The position numbers and the translations under genes are program-made. The notes under the pieces were generated by a model. That model had not been told where the DNA came from. It worked only from the letters and a program-made list of their open reading frames with translations, and did not search any database. DNA of 6,378 nucleotides, from positions 1-6,378 of the forward strand of contig JASIGD010000049.1 of NCBI GenBank assembly GCA_030045295.1, given 5' to 3'. Positions 1 to 6,378 of this stretch are shown piece after piece. This DNA comes from Streptosporangiaceae bacterium. Lineage in GTDB: Bacteria > Actinomycetota > Actinomycetes > Streptosporangiales > Streptosporangiaceae. The first letter of the stretch is position 1. The number at the start of each line of letters is the position of its first letter.

Positions 1-752
1 CCGCGGCCCCAGTAGGCCTTGGGTGAGATCTGGTCCTGGCCGAGGCCGCGCCCGGCTAGGACCTCCCGCAGCCGCGACACGACCGTCGCCTCGCCGAACA
101 GGTAGGCGTGGCCACGGCCGGGCGGCAGCTCGATCTCGGCTGCCTCGGCGGCCAGAGCCGACGGGTCACCGGCGGGCGCGCCGATGCGGTGCAGCCAGGA
201 GATGCGGATGGTTCCCGGGGCAGCCAGGTCCTGCTCGTCACTCTCCTCGGGGATCTCGAGCACGAGCGTGGCCGGGCGATCGGGCGGCAGCGCCTCGGTC
301 ATCGCGAATATCGCGGGCAGCGCCGACTCGTCGCCCATGAACAAGTGCCAGTCGGCCGTCGCCGACGTGGCGATCTTCCCGCGCGGCCCGATGCCCTCGA
401 TCTTGTCGCCGGACCGGGCCGATCGCACCCAGCGTTCGCCGGGACCATCGCCGTGCAGCACGATGTCGAGCGTGAGCAGCCGGTCGGCCGCGTCAAGCTG
501 CCGGATCGTGTAACGCCGCCGTACCGGGCGGTTACCCTCGGCCGCCACCAGCAGCATCACATCCTGGCCGGGCAGGTAGCTGAACCCGTCGAGCTGCGGG
601 GCCGTCAGCCTGAGCCGCTGCATGTGCGGGGTGAGCTGGGCTGAGCCGACGACCTCGAAATCCAGTCGCGTCGTGCCGGCCAGCGGCCCGGTCAGTTGCG
701 CTAGCGGATCATCCAGCGCCCCGCGAGCCGGTTCCGGCAGTGCGTCAGCCAT
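1..752 (-). CDS. Siderophore-interacting protein (FAD/NAD(P)H ferric-siderophore reductase), partial
   Basis: Cytoplasmic flavoprotein of the SIP/ViuB family. Members use NAD(P)H and FAD to reduce ferric siderophores and release the iron. Translating the minus strand from the ATG at 752-750 gives 250 complete residues with no stop before the left edge. The FAD-binding signature RRRYTIR lies at residues 78-84, followed by HGDGPGERW (100-108) and GPRG (122-125). The NAD(P)-binding half begins with the family motif GDESALPAI (140-148). Near the edge YLFGEA (217-222) and PKAYW (244-248) match the conserved C-terminal part. Family members are about 260-290 residues, so only the last few tens are missing. 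A purine-rich GGAAAGGGG lies about 11 bases before the ATG and supports this start. The gene is divergent from the MOSC gene. No canonical actinobacterial iron box (TTAGGTTAGGCTAACCTAA type) is visible upstream, so iron control is not shown here. The family call is firm; the siderophore is unknown. Confidence 0.93.
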   Translation of the reverse strand, partial: MADALPEPARGALDDPLAQLTGPLAGTTRLDFEVVGSAQLTPHMQRLRLTAPQLDGFSYLPGQDVMLLVAAEGNRPVRRRYTIRQLDAADRLLTLDIVLHGDGPGERWVRSARSGDKIEGIGPRGKIATSATADWHLFMGDESALPAIFAMTEALPPDRPATLVLEIPEESDEQDLAAPGTIRISWLHRIGAPAGDPSALAAEAAEIELPPGRGHAYLFGEATVVSRLREVLAGRGLGQDQISPKAYWGR

Positions 753-1074: not shown

Positions 1075-1860
1075 ATGGAAGTCCTGGGGTTGTGGCGCCA
1101 CGCCGTCAAGTCCTTGCAAGGCGAGCGGCTGGAGTCGGCCTGCTTCGAAGACGACGGGCTGGTAGGCGACCGGCGCTGGGGGATCCGCGATTTGCGGACG
1201 GGTCGGATCTTGACTGCCCGTCGTCGGCCTGAACTGCTTGGCGCGGTCGCGTCCTGTGACGGCGAGCTGCCGATGATCGCTCTTCCCGATGGCGGTACCG
1301 CCGTCGGGCCGGGGCGGGGTACCGACGGTCTCCTGTCGCGGTGGCTGGGGAGCCCGGTCTCGCTGGTGGCCTCCGCAGGAAACGCAGGTGGGCGAGCCGA
1401 GTACTTCGCGGACGCGACCGACGACAACAGCCAGGCGATCGAGTGGACGATGCCGGCGGGCCGGTACGTCGACTCCGCCCCCGTTCTGGTGCTTTCCACG
1501 GCGTCGTTGCGCACTGCCGCAGAGTTGCACCCCGACGGCGTCTGGGATCCCCGGCGCTTTCGGCCCAACGTGCTGATTGACGTCGAGGGCAAGGGCTGGC
1601 CTGAAGACGAATGGGTCGGCAGGACCCTGTCTATCGGAGCGGTCGTGCTGGTGCCCCTCGAGCCGTGCAGCCGGTGCACCATGGTGACCCGAGCCCAGCC
1701 CGGCCTGCAAGCCGATGTCGACGTCTTTCGCACCCTGGCCCGTCACCATCGTGGTCTCTTCGGCGTCTGGTGCGACGTGCTCACCGGCGGCACCCTGTCA
1801 GTCGGGGAAGAAGCGATCGTCGAAGCCCGCCGCCCCGTCGAGGGTTGCGCACACCGTTAG
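1075..1860 (+). CDS. MOSC domain-containing protein (YcbX/mARC-type molybdenum cofactor protein)
   Basis: A 261-residue protein with an N-terminal MOSC_N beta-barrel followed by a MOSC domain, the fold shared by the Moco sulfurase C-terminus, E. coli YcbX and eukaryotic mARC. The N-terminus shows the family pattern VKSLQGE (11-17), GLVGDRRW (28-35) and RILTARR (44-50). The MOSC part has RFRPNVLID (161-169) and PCSRCTMVT (197-205). By comparison with mARC/YcbX, Cys201 in the RCxxxT motif is the expected molybdenum ligand. Such enzymes reduce N-hydroxylated compounds using an external electron donor. YcbX carries a C-terminal 2Fe-2S ferredoxin domain that is absent here, so the donor must be a separate protein. 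The ATG is preceded by GAGGTGA at good spacing. The gene is divergent from the SIP gene and monocistronic as far as can be seen: the next plus-strand gene starts 501 bases on. Substrate and partners are unknown. Confidence 0.92.
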   Translation: MEVLGLWRHAVKSLQGERLESACFEDDGLVGDRRWGIRDLRTGRILTARRRPELLGAVASCDGELPMIALPDGGTAVGPGRGTDGLLSRWLGSPVSLVASAGNAGGRAEYFADATDDNSQAIEWTMPAGRYVDSAPVLVLSTASLRTAAELHPDGVWDPRRFRPNVLIDVEGKGWPEDEWVGRTLSIGAVVLVPLEPCSRCTMVTRAQPGLQADVDVFRTLARHHRGLFGVWCDVLTGGTLSVGEEAIVEARRPVEGCAHR

Positions 1861-2361: not shown

Positions 2362-4959
2362 ATGGCCGGTAGGCGGCGTCGGCTCGACCCGGTGGGGCCG
2401 TTTGGCAATCCGGACGGGTCACGAGCCGACATCGAGGATGTGCTCAGCGAGTTCGTCGACTTCGGCGGCAACCCGGCCTACGGCCACCTCGCGACCCGTG
2501 CCAACGACTCCATGGTGCGGGTCATCGTGGGAAAGCTCGGGGCTGGCAAGACGGTATACCTGCGGCGTCTTCAGGATTTCCAGTCACATCAGGACTCGGT
2601 CTACGCCGATCTGCCGCAGCAGAGCTTGCCGAAGACCGAAGTCGTGGTGAAGGCGTGCCAGTGGTTCTCAGACAGTGTCCTGGTCGAGAAGTGGATGCAG
2701 ATCTGGGAGCGCGCGATCATGCGGTCGCTGGCCTCGCACCTGTTGTGTCGCACCGAGTTGCGTGAGCAGTTGCGCGACGAGCAGGCTGAGGAAATCGAGC
2801 GCTCGTACGCGCGGCTGCTGGATGGCTTCCGCCGGCCACGGTCGATCTATAGCGAGGTGCGCGACATCATCAATGGGCGGCAGACCGGCCATCAGCTGTC
2901 TACGTACCTCGACGATCCGCTCTGGGACGACCTGGAGGATCTGCTGGGCGAGGTAGTCGGCCAGTGCAAGCCGATGTATTTCTACCTGGACGCGGTGGAC
3001 GAGGAGTTCAGCCACGCCCCGATGTACTGGCTGAAGTGTCAGGAGGGGTTGTTCTACCAGGTGATGCGGCTGCTCCGCGACCACAGGCTGGGCGGTCGCC
3101 TGCATGTCGTGGTATGCATCCGCGACATCGTCATGTCATCGGTGTACCGGTCAGAACATGCGCCGCGGTACTACAACGAACCACACATCCGCGTCCTGAC
3201 CTGGGACCGCGGTTCGCTGCTGTACCTGCTGGGGCGAAAGCTAGAGCGGCTGCCGCCGTCAGTGCTGATGCGACGCGCCACCAGCGGCCCCCCCACGATC
3301 GGCGACTGGCTCGGGGTCGATGGCCACTGGCCGGGTCCCGATGGTGGCGAAACGATCGAGGATTACCTGCTCAGCCACACGAGGCTGATCCCGCGCGACA
3401 TCATCTCGCTCGGCAATGAGCTGAGCGAGGAGGTCCTACGGCAGAAGCAGGCTGGCCGCGGGGGCCTGCCGCCGGCGGTTCTGCAGGAAGTGGTTCGGCG
3501 CTGCGCGAAGCGGTTCGGCGACTCCCAGCTCGCGCAATGCGCCAACCAGGTCTCGTCGGACCTGATGCCGGAAAACGCTGCCCTGCACAACTACTCCGAA
3601 TTGTTTACCAGCACCCAGGCGTATATCAGCGGTGTGCAGGAGGACGTCCGCTCCTTCGTCCGGATGATCGGCGCCGACCGATTCTCGCGCGCGGATCTGG
3701 TGGCGCTGCAGGAAGTGGCGGATCTGCACTTCCAGAAGGCGACGCACCTCGCCTCGGTCCTGTGGCAGAACGGCCTGCTCGGGTACGTCGACGAAAGCGG
3801 GCGGCACCGGTTCTATTCCATGGGCGACATCGAGCAGTTTCACTTCCCGCCGGACGTAGACACGTACGTGCTGCATCCGTGCCTGGCGCATGCTGTCGGG
3901 GGAATACAGCATGTGGCGGCGGATGCTGCTGGAGCCGCAGGTGCGCGCCGCACCCGCCCGCTCCCGCCTCCTGACCGCAGCGATCGTCCCGGGACGTCGC
4001 GAGCCGCATCGCCCTCCGGCGGCAGCCAGGCGCTGCCGGAGGCCGACTCGGCAGAGGCGCGATCCTCGGCCGCGTCCGGGACTGGTGATTATGCTGTGGG
4101 CGACGTCCTTGAGGGCCGGTTCAAGATTCTCCAGATACTCGGACAGGGCAGCTTTTCGAAGGTCTATCGGGTGCGCGACGACGTCGAGGGCGCCGAGCGA
4201 GCGCTGAAGCTCTTCAATACCGCGGCCGGGAACGAGGCGGTGCGCCGCGAGATCGGCGCCCTGCGGAAAATCGATCATCCCAACGTGGTCAAGGTCTTCT
4301 GGGCCGGCAAGACCAACGCCGACGACTGGTATCTCATCACCGAGTTCATTGACGGGGAGTCACTGGATGAGTTTGTCGCCGGGAACAGGCGCCTCCGTGA
4401 CCGGGAAGCGGTAGATGTGGCACTCGACCTGCTAGACGCGCTCGTCGCCTTTCACCCTGATGCCGCGCGCCTCAAGCAGCTGGATGCCAAACGCCGCGAA
4501 GGCTGCCTCACCGAAGCCGAGTCGCGCGAGTGGACGGAACTGAGCGACAGGGGGTTGGTCCATCGCGATATCAAACCGCTCAACGTGATGCTCACTCGCA
4601 CCGGGGCGAAACTGCTCGACTTCAACATCGCCTCCCGGGTCGGCGACCCCGTGCATACTCGGTCAGGCACACCGCCGTATCAGCCACCCGACGCCAGCCT
4701 CACACGCTGGGACATCTCGACCGACCTGTTCGCCGTCGGCGTCTTGCTCTACCGGCTGCTCTGCGACGGCCACCACCCGTTCCCGAATGCGATGCCCATG
4801 GCCGACGTACCGGTGACCGATCCCAGAACGATCCGCCCGGACCTCAACCTCGGCCTTGCGGAGTTTCTCCTCAAGGCATGCGCCCCAGCCAGCGTTGACC
4901 GCTTCACCACCGCTGCTGACATGCGGTTCGCCTTGCGCAGCATTCGCACTGACCTCTGA
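2362..4959 (+). CDS. P-loop NTPase / winged-helix / Ser-Thr protein kinase fusion
   Basis: An 865-residue soluble multidomain protein; no signal peptide or membrane segment is visible. Residues 15-500 form a P-loop NTPase with Walker A GKLGAGKT (57-64, Lys63) and Walker B MYFYLDAVDEEF (205-216; Asp210, Asp213, Glu214). A conserved block follows: CIRDIV (252-257), RSEH (263-266) and HIRVLTWD (275-282), as in STAND/KAP-like ATPases. About 434-496 resembles a winged helix. Residues 518-575 are an Ala/Pro/Ser/Arg-rich linker. Residues 577-865 are a Hanks kinase: GQGSFSKVY (594-602), Lys616, Glu630, HRDIKPLN (734-741), DFN (753-755) and Asp788. Oddities are DFN for DFG, about 31 extra residues (699-730) before HRD, and PPD (775-777) for APE. 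The likely role is ATP-dependent sensing coupled to phosphorylation, perhaps in phage defence (inference). A GTG at 2257 would add 35 residues but lacks a ribosome binding site. Third positions look less G/C-biased than in the transporter gene. Confidence 0.92.
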   Translation: MAGRRRRLDPVGPFGNPDGSRADIEDVLSEFVDFGGNPAYGHLATRANDSMVRVIVGKLGAGKTVYLRRLQDFQSHQDSVYADLPQQSLPKTEVVVKACQWFSDSVLVEKWMQIWERAIMRSLASHLLCRTELREQLRDEQAEEIERSYARLLDGFRRPRSIYSEVRDIINGRQTGHQLSTYLDDPLWDDLEDLLGEVVGQCKPMYFYLDAVDEEFSHAPMYWLKCQEGLFYQVMRLLRDHRLGGRLHVVVCIRDIVMSSVYRSEHAPRYYNEPHIRVLTWDRGSLLYLLGRKLERLPPSVLMRRATSGPPTIGDWLGVDGHWPGPDGGETIEDYLLSHTRLIPRDIISLGNELSEEVLRQKQAGRGGLPPAVLQEVVRRCAKRFGDSQLAQCANQVSSDLMPENAALHNYSELFTSTQAYISGVQEDVRSFVRMIGADRFSRADLVALQEVADLHFQKATHLASVLWQNGLLGYVDESGRHRFYSMGDIEQFHFPPDVDTYVLHPCLAHAVGGIQHVAADAAGAAGARRTRPLPPPDRSDRPGTSRAASPSGGSQALPEADSAEARSSAASGTGDYAVGDVLEGRFKILQILGQGSFSKVYRVRDDVEGAERALKLFNTAAGNEAVRREIGALRKIDHPNVVKVFWAGKTNADDWYLITEFIDGESLDEFVAGNRRLRDREAVDVALDLLDALVAFHPDAARLKQLDAKRREGCLTEAESREWTELSDRGLVHRDIKPLNVMLTRTGAKLLDFNIASRVGDPVHTRSGTPPYQPPDASLTRWDISTDLFAVGVLLYRLLCDGHHPFPNAMPMADVPVTDPRTIRPDLNLGLAEFLLKACAPASVDRFTTAADMRFALRSIRTDL

Positions 4960-5280: not shown

Positions 5281-5286
5281 CACCGG

Positions 5287-6378
5287 ATGCCAGAAACCGG
5301 CATGCCGCGTGACGCGGCACCGGAAACGGGGACGGGCCGGGCGGCTCCTGATCCGCGGCGCTGGCTGATCCTGGCGACCGTCGGGCTCGCCCAGCTCATG
5401 ATCGTGCTCGACCTGACGGTGATCAACATCGCGCTGCCGTCCGCGCAGCACACACTGCACTTCGCGACCGTGGACAGGCAATGGGTGGTGACCGCGTACG
5501 CGCTGGCGTTCGGCAGCCTGCTGCTGGTCGGCGGGCGGCTGGCCGACCTGCTCGGCCGCAAGGTTACGTTCATGGTGGGCCTGGCCGGGTTTGCGCTGGT
5601 GTCGGCCGTGGGCGGGGCGTCGGTGAGCTTCACCATGCTGGTGACGGCTCGCGCCTGCCAGGGCGCCTTCGCGGCGATCATGGCACCGTCGGCGCTATCG
5701 ATCCTGACCAACACGTTCCAGGATCCGAAGGACCGCGGCAAGGCGTTCGGCGTGTTCGGCTCGATCGCCGGGGCCGGCAGCGCGGTGGGCCTGCTGCTGG
5801 GCGGGGCGCTGACCTCGTACCTGTCCTGGCGCTGGACGCTGTACGTCAACCTGGTTTTCGCCGGGCTCGCACTGGTCGGCGCTGCGGTGCTACTGCGGCG
5901 GGAGCCGGCCCGCGGCGGCCAGCGGCTGGACCTGCCCGGCGCCGTCCTGGTCGCCGGCGGGATGTTCTGCCTGGTCTACGGGCTCGGCAATGCCGCCACG
6001 CACGGCTGGCACACGCCGTCGACCTGGGGCTTCCTGGTCGCCGGCGTCGCCGGGCTGGCCGCGTTCGCCGCCTGGCAGACGCGCGCGAAGGACCCGCTGC
6101 TGCCGCCCCGGGTGGTGCTGGACCGCAACCGCGGCGCCGCCTACCTGTCGATGTTCGTCGCAGCGGCCGGGCTGTTCGGGATCTTCTTGTTCCTGACCTA
6201 CTACCTGCAGGAGACGCTGAGGTACTCGCCGCTGGTGACCGGTGTGGCGTTCCTGCCGATCAGCGGCGGCCTGGTGGTCGCGTCCAACGTGTCCACGATC
6301 GTGCTGATGCCCAGGGTCGGGCCCAGGCCGCTGGTCACGTCCGGGATGCTGGCCGCAGCGGGCGGGGCGGTCTGGCTG
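5287..6378 (+). CDS. DHA2-family MFS drug:proton antiporter, partial
   Basis: The first 364 residues of an integral membrane transporter that continues past the right edge; complete 14-TM DHA2 (QacA/EmrB-like) proteins are about 460-550 residues. A charged cytoplasmic N-terminus (1-28) precedes TM1. Family motifs appear in order: LDLTVINIALP (41-51, the DHA2 motif at the end of TM1), GGRLADLLGRK (82-92, MFS motif A between TM2 and TM3), RACQGAFAAIMAPSAL (122-137, motif B in TM4), and GAGSAVGLLLGG (162-173, antiporter motif C in TM5, with the usual proline replaced). SWRWTLYVN after TM5 is also typical. These pumps export toxic or antibiotic compounds using the proton gradient; the substrate cannot be predicted. 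Third codon positions are strongly G/C. The gene is preceded by an operator-like palindrome and a probable TetR remnant, suggesting repressor control. Confidence 0.95.
   Translation, partial: MPETGMPRDAAPETGTGRAAPDPRRWLILATVGLAQLMIVLDLTVINIALPSAQHTLHFATVDRQWVVTAYALAFGSLLLVGGRLADLLGRKVTFMVGLAGFALVSAVGGASVSFTMLVTARACQGAFAAIMAPSALSILTNTFQDPKDRGKAFGVFGSIAGAGSAVGLLLGGALTSYLSWRWTLYVNLVFAGLALVGAAVLLRREPARGGQRLDLPGAVLVAGGMFCLVYGLGNAATHGWHTPSTWGFLVAGVAGLAAFAAWQTRAKDPLLPPRVVLDRNRGAAYLSMFVAAAGLFGIFLFLTYYLQETLRYSPLVTGVAFLPISGGLVVASNVSTIVLMPRVGPRPLVTSGMLAAAGGAVWL

Follow-up and report, generated by a model that had tools for sequence, protein, structure and literature searches.

An Sll1717-family ATPase fused to a Ser/Thr kinase as a candidate alarm switch with exchangeable outputs

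The fused gene

The window considered here is a stretch of 6,378 nucleotides from a Streptosporangiaceae bacterium (contig JASIGD010000049.1), and its central gene encodes a P-loop ATPase joined by a linker to a Ser/Thr kinase. The gene (positions 2362-4959, forward strand) is a single open frame of 865 amino acids with an ATG start. An alternative GTG at 2257 would extend the frame upstream; the ATG at 2362 is taken as the start because it is common to 18 aligned homologues. Similar ATPases are found with other output enzymes in relatives, and the gene is read here, with a probability of about 0.55, as the kinase-bearing form of a modular alarm switch, gated by nucleotide and able to exchange its output. 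The features of the gene are as follows.

2362..4959, + strand: whole gene, Sll1717-family ATPase, linker and Ser/Thr kinase, 865 amino acids (frame, Pfam, NCBIfam, homologues)
2395..2418, + strand: subfamily signature GPFGNPDG, residues 12-19 (alignment of 14 ATPases; G15, N16, P17, D18 and G19 invariant)
2530..2553, + strand: Walker A, GKLGAGKT, residues 57-64 (motif, alignment)
2971..3009, + strand: Walker B, PMYFYLDAVDEEF, residues 204-216 (motif, alignment)
3616..3897, + strand: winged-helix-like segment, residues about 419-512 (predicted structure)
3913..4089, + strand: variable, disordered linker, residues about 518-576 (full-length model, alignment)
4090..4956, + strand: Hanks-type Ser/Thr kinase domain, residues about 577-865 (Pfam, invariant catalytic residues)
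4456..4548, + strand: kinase insert ahead of the catalytic loop, residues about 699-729 (variable in relatives; helices in a weak model)
4561..4569, + strand: HRD, residues 734-736 (alignment)
4618..4626, + strand: DFN replacing DFG, residues 753-755 (alignment)

An earlier note on this DNA had joined a P-loop nucleoside triphosphatase and a kinase in one open frame and had proposed collecting homologues to see whether the fusion is conserved. The 865-amino-acid gene bears out the first point, and the homologues bear out the second. Residues 1-560 as query gave 1,500 proteins. A kinase domain is precomputed in 119 of the 120 matches listed, which are 86-93% identical to the query, the window's own entry aside; close relatives that carry a name are assigned to Streptosporangiaceae. 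The ATPase-kinase fusion is far above chance.

The ATPase and its fold

By sequence, the ATPase is a member of the uncharacterised Sll1717 family. It scores 87.5 bits against NCBIfam NF047389 (P-loop ATPase, Sll1717 family; curated cut-off 75), with residues 14-510 aligned to model positions 1-452 of 454. The model states no function, and in open-licence PubMed Central (listings and passages) no paper tied to this ATPase and none naming Sll1717 was found. The canonical members of the family that were sampled (L019-L024) differ from it in that they lack the GPFGNPDG signature (by eye) and share only 19-22% identity with it.

The Walker A motif claimed by the earlier note at residues 57-64 and the Walker B motif claimed at 205-216 are both present, the latter within 204-216. 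The Walker A pattern is kept in 338 of 342 family members and the Walker B pattern in 339 of 342. Structure prediction, which the same note had named as a check of the ATPase fold, gives a P-loop domain followed by the winged-helix-like segment (46-row alignment; predicted local distance difference test, pLDDT, 85.4; predicted template modelling score, pTM, 0.86). The predicted fold is AAA+/STAND-like at the level of the superfamily. The top Foldseek rows for the ATPase are RdrA (of RADAR) and BrxC (of BREX), both marginal, and a sequence search of the PDB with the ATPase gave nothing useful. Across 51 other fusions, the ATPase (the putative sensor) has a mean identity of 88%.

The linker and the kinase

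The linker looks disordered, as had been claimed: pLDDT is below 50 at residues 522-575 of the full-length model. No domain interface is claimed because that model is weak (pLDDT 63.3, pTM 0.39). The linker is also the least conserved part of the protein, with a mean identity of 49% to the 51 other fusions; the ATPase, winged helix and kinase core have means of 80-95%, and the kinase insert, where present, 77%.

The kinase domain had been called complete, and this agrees with the Pfam Pkinase match (E 4.8e-29) and with the invariance of Lys616, Glu630, the HRD motif, Asn741 and Asp753 across 52 aligned fusions. Judged from these residues, the catalytic set of a Hanks-type kinase is complete, with DFN standing for DFG. 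DFN is found in 234 of 235 fusions and DFG in 0 of 235 (proteins counted, not independent genomes). The spacing from FHP to HRD is 37 residues in 196 of the 220 measurable fusions and shorter in 24 (range 6 to 37 residues). The insert ahead of the catalytic loop varies in length among close relatives and may therefore be regulatory. The solved structures nearest to the kinase by sequence are of StkP/PknB-type and calcium-dependent kinases.

In four fusions (P0279, P0310, P0242 and P0191), a frameshift in or after the linker leaves the ATPase intact without the kinase; sequencing error, decay and phase variation are indistinguishable as its source. P0279 and P0310 were considered as carriers of new C-terminal domains and rejected, since by eye these regions are frameshifted kinase copies (Pfam is blank there).

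Exchangeable outputs

ATPases that are 71-93% identical to that of the window come in several arrangements: as fusions with a kinase, as fusions with one or the other of two class III cyclases, and with an FRG-domain gene directly behind them. Among records of named species, the ATPase is encoded at nine loci (L001-L009). L001-L005 are kinase fusions, and L006 and L007 are class III cyclase fusions, the former by Pfam (PF00211, 47 bits) and the latter by motif, its cyclase being cut by the contig end. L008 and L009 have stand-alone ATPases, each with an FRG-domain gene (PF08867, 68 and 75 bits) directly after it. The junction between the two genes is an ATGA overlap in L008 and a 1-base gap in L009. 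The two genomes are distant from each other, and their FRG proteins are 60% identical. In the phylum sample, the FRG protein occurs in one of 396 genomes, and that copy adjoins the ATPase.

A search with the L006 cyclase fusion gave 30 PF00211 proteins among the 120 matches listed, the query included, with 23 at 83-88% identity and six at 70-71%. These form 30 clusters from several sources, and the D and GD motifs of the cyclase are intact in all 28 that were checked. Identity between the two cyclase types is 42%, that between their ATPases 84%. The six-member type retains the kinase-type linker (SGG.QAL.EP, then VR) up to the junction (three of the six displayed), which suggests an exchange of the C-terminal domain. 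Additionally, kinase and cyclase forms interleave in the ATPase tree, where four labels change 15 times over 109 rows, few of its branches being firm. The sequence comparisons suggest that the ATPase is modular and that its outputs can be swapped.

Further members of the family are stand-alone ATPases, 52-59% and in some cases 71-73% identical to the ATPase of the window. Just upstream of one such ATPase lies a gene for a 333-amino-acid protein with a hydrophobic N-terminus (L037:9443-10444, - strand, the same as L029:2711-3712). This protein has no Pfam, NCBIfam or PADLOC match and is possibly another output. At L038:5692-8445, with a similar fragment at L039:8497-9453, a second P-loop ATPase gene (by eye) adjoins a stand-alone ATPase, and the flanks of the two loci are shared. 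One protein, P0270 (1229 amino acids), is an ATPase-cyclase fusion that runs on into a second AAA/STAND-like ATPase (PF13401, PF13191).

The FHA protein

A gene for a small FHA-domain protein with a conserved N-terminal segment lies directly after the kinase gene in three of the loci (Pfam PF00498, neighbour comparison).

L005:12104-12550: FHA gene
L004:12635-13162: FHA gene (Trebonia kvetii)
L003:2999-3433: FHA gene

When this protein was searched against 297 genomes of the family, 107 had a match at 1e-8 and only seven had one at 1e-39 or better. The next-best match is at 2e-12, and the weaker rows nearly all cover the FHA part alone (one exception is G097, residues 17-140, 5e-10). A strong match is present in five of the five kinase-fusion genomes versus two of the 292 others, one of these two being a contig-end fragment (G060); the Fisher p value is 1e-9, kinship not corrected. 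The FHA gene is adjacent to the kinase fusion in G003, G004 and G005 and lies elsewhere in the genome in G001 and G002. No strong match was found in the cyclase genomes (G006, G007) or in the FRG genome G008; as scores were taken for at most 13 candidates per genome, FHA absences are soft.

FHA domains bind phosphothreonine, and a relay from kinase to FHA protein is therefore the natural reading. Judged from co-occurrence and domain content, the FHA protein is likely the receiver of the kinase's phosphorylation. The earlier note's view of phosphorylation as the output itself is plausible, with two amendments: the FHA protein offers a possible reader, and the kinase is one among several outputs that can be exchanged. 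About 70 residues at the N-terminus of the FHA protein form a conserved segment that matches no Pfam family.

Distribution and flanks

The ATPase is accessory and patchy in distribution. It is present in 8 of the 297 genomes of the family, all eight among the nine loci, and in 0 of the 289 others. In the class sample it was found in 1 of 394 genomes (the centre genome itself), in another order in 3 of 30 (one of them the centre) and in a third order in 1 of 3 (the centre). The Sll1717 model matched 12 of the 396 phylum-sample genomes, 11 above the cut-off. Absences in these counts are soft because many assemblies are metagenomic.

The flanks mostly differ between loci. What is shared comprises the FHA genes, the flanks of L038 with L039, a methyltransferase in L001 and L007, and weak matches (31-32%) between sigma-factor-like and ABC (ATP-binding cassette)-type proteins, which are read as common families. 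Nine of 12 genomes yielded rpoB; the comparison leaves out pairs that involve G340 or G006, whose chosen frame was not usable as rpoB, and the G001 rpoB is a fragment of 429 amino acids. rpoB and ATPase identities disagree for G009-G605 (93.5% vs 55.6%), G009-G004 (68.8% vs 72.7%) and G004-G008 (91.8% vs 72.5%), and they agree for G605-G683 (95.7 and 87.3%) and G004-G007 (88.6 and 85.5%). Either horizontal transfer or loss among old paralogues would fit this discord. Homologues lying consistently beside housekeeping or developmental genes, with vertical inheritance, had been named as what would speak against a defence role; instead, the flanks vary by locus and the ATPase is discordant with rpoB.

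The methyltransferases L001:180-995 and L007:560-1519 are 52% identical (PF04672 in L007) and lie upstream of a kinase fusion and a cyclase fusion, respectively. They perhaps mark one locus with a swapped output, or a chance meeting within a large family.

Comparison with known systems

RdrA of RADAR, BrxC of BREX, Cdc6-Orc, SSO1545 and NLR proteins resemble the ATPase in having a P-loop core, predicted here, with a winged helix. They differ from it in sequence (10-15% identity), and the output here is a tethered kinase. The window holds neither an RdrB adenosine deaminase gene nor a BREX gene, and the likeness to RADAR is in predicted fold alone. The VMAP ternary, iSTAND and EAD conflict systems of multicellular bacteria, common in actinobacteria, come nearest overall; they combine an NTPase with exchangeable kinase, FHA, cyclase and other modules according to the available passages of PMC7159879 and PMC8195603. 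As presented there, they are built on another ATPase family; here sensor and output are often one chain. The Pfam scan saw no vWA, MoxR, VMAP or EAD parts among the window's genes (for the neighbour loci, the Pfam scan lists 25 of 119 families). A Hanks-type kinase as the proposed output is shared with Stk2 and KKP, as described in passages of PMC11341870, and with PD-T4-6 and MAD6, compared by models; those passages mention no such ATPase part for Stk2 or KKP.

Proposed mechanism and alternatives

In the proposed switch, a cytoplasmic AAA+/STAND-type ATPase, with a predicted fold like that of Orc/Cdc6, SSO1545 and RdrA and a winged helix, would be an ATP-gated and probably oligomerising sensor. 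On a trigger, it would activate the enzyme that the disordered linker tethers to it. In the window this enzyme is a Ser/Thr kinase, which would phosphorylate itself or targets. The phosphothreonine would then be read by a small FHA protein, whose gene may be adjacent or lie at a distance in the genome. In relatives the sensor would be kept and another output, either a class III nucleotide cyclase or an FRG protein of the ADP-ribosyltransferase (ART) superfamily, would take the kinase's place. The cell would use the whole as an accessory alarm, under conflict or under stress. Several points weigh against this account. ATP gating and oligomers are steps that we infer, with a full-length model too weak for an interface, and the Foldseek rows fall short of E 0.001. 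The window has no FHA gene, so none lies beside its kinase fusion, and the FHA gene is non-adjacent in two of the five kinase-fusion genomes. The FHA count ignores kinship, and the assemblies behind all genomes beyond the nine loci are incomplete or unnamed. The ATPase tree is also compatible with a single cyclase clade (approximately unbiased test, p 0.24).

Two alternatives are the best explanation with its purpose fixed, so their likelihoods overlap with its own and are not to be added to it. The system may be an anti-phage system proper, in which the ATPase would sense infection and the kinase, cyclase or FRG protein would stop the cell, as in RADAR, STAND/NLR-type systems and Stk2; this falls somewhat short of an even chance. 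The identity of the top Foldseek rows, the exchangeable outputs, the patchy occurrence and the rpoB disagreement favour it, as does the FRG gene, which stands beside the ATPase of two relatives and not in the window. This gene matches the PADLOC candidate PDC-S15 at 1.7e-62; FRG is a potential antiviral ART-superfamily effector in the available passages of PMC9503650, and candidates such as PDC-S15 are still uncharacterised in those of PMC12482510. However, the FRG gene is the sole specific defence candidate traced among 88 neighbours of 13 loci, and no defence island was seen there. These 88 were scanned out of 109 called proteins (21 short or doubtful ones were omitted by eye), the calls following a simple rule on third-position G+C (GC3) that was wrong in some cases (the FRG gene of L008 was missed). 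ABC-type ATPases in L006 and L008 account for the PADLOC matches to mad3 (4 of 4) and mad8 (3 of 3), and single proteins for those to C3a156 and mad2 (1 of 2 each); another tracing scan matched 0 of 10, and matches to PDC-M05A/B are present, untraced to proteins. PADLOC gave no match at 1e-5 for the ATPase part. Plasmid or phage carriage was rejected, as none of the 168 plasmid and 11 phage records matched covers 80% of the query. The matches listed (20 of the 168 plasmid rows and the 11 phage rows) are kinase-domain matches, and no viral contig matched (two peptide patterns only). Moreover, the sensor is strongly conserved rather than diversifying. The defence role put forward by the earlier note is thus unsupported in the form given there, and the neighbourhood check that it proposed yielded one candidate, FRG, with no other specific defence neighbour traced. 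The competing purpose is stress or developmental signalling of filamentous actinobacteria, in which the cue would be internal (energy, DNA or envelope state) with no phage link. It is likewise just under even, and the odds between defence proper and stress signalling are about even. The chromosomal neighbours are ordinary and varied, the sensor is conserved, and kinases, FHA proteins and class III cyclases are common actinobacterial signalling parts, all of which suits it; the patchiness, the rpoB discord and an FRG output, unusual for a developmental regulator, do not.

The other two explanations are far less probable. That the gene belongs to a kinase defence system already described (BREX/Pgl PglW, MADS MAD6 or PD-T4-6) is very improbable even though the kinase domain matches those models. 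The matches are far under the NCBIfam cut-offs (MAD6 165.3 bits against 460; PglW equivalog 70.5 bits, kinase part only, against 990), and no such partner gene is in the window. On PADLOC, the window kinase scores 142 bits for PD-T4-6 and 138 for mad6, below the best scores of ordinary kinases from plasmid records L042, L043 and L044 (321, 307 and 483 bits for PD-T4-6; 260, 241 and 259 for mad6). On NCBIfam MAD6, ordinary kinases reach 197.1 (L042) and 159.3 bits (L043). These matches were rejected as defence evidence because ordinary kinases match the models as well or better. The output differences could also be assembly artefacts or chance neighbours, which is hardly more probable: frameshifts affect several fusions and many records come from metagenome assemblies, but the cyclase clusters number thirty, from several sources and with intact motifs in the 28 checked, and the FRG gene adjoins the ATPase in two distant genomes.

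Regarding the proposed alarm switch, a broader reading is offered tentatively, as something rather less probable than the switch itself. It may be an undescribed alarm or immunity platform in which one conserved Cdc6/NLR-type sensor is combined with a kinase (and its dedicated FHA reader), either cyclase, or an effector of ADP-ribosyltransferase fold (FRG), so that different soil actinobacteria would meet the same danger signal with different chemistries. If so, phosphorylation with FHA, cyclic-nucleotide signalling and ART-type effectors would be tied to one Cdc6/NLR-like switch. It would be a natural experiment, in which the sensor is near-constant while the output enzyme varies, and the signal to which this uncharacterised ATPase family responds could therefore be found through the output that lends itself best to assay, be it kinase activity, cyclic nucleotide or consumption of nicotinamide adenine dinucleotide (NAD).

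Other features of the window

The evident genes of the window number four: those for a siderophore-interacting protein, a MOSC protein and a major facilitator superfamily (MFS) transporter in addition to the fusion gene. The flanking three are taken to lie outside the system.

3..752, - strand: siderophore-interacting protein (Pfam)
1075..1860, + strand: MOSC-domain protein (Pfam)
5284..6378, + strand: MFS transporter, truncated by the window end (Pfam)

The window has no tRNA genes and no hits in an Rfam search, and a scan of it for promoters and terminators gave results at chance level only. It is GC-rich throughout, at 62-73% G+C.
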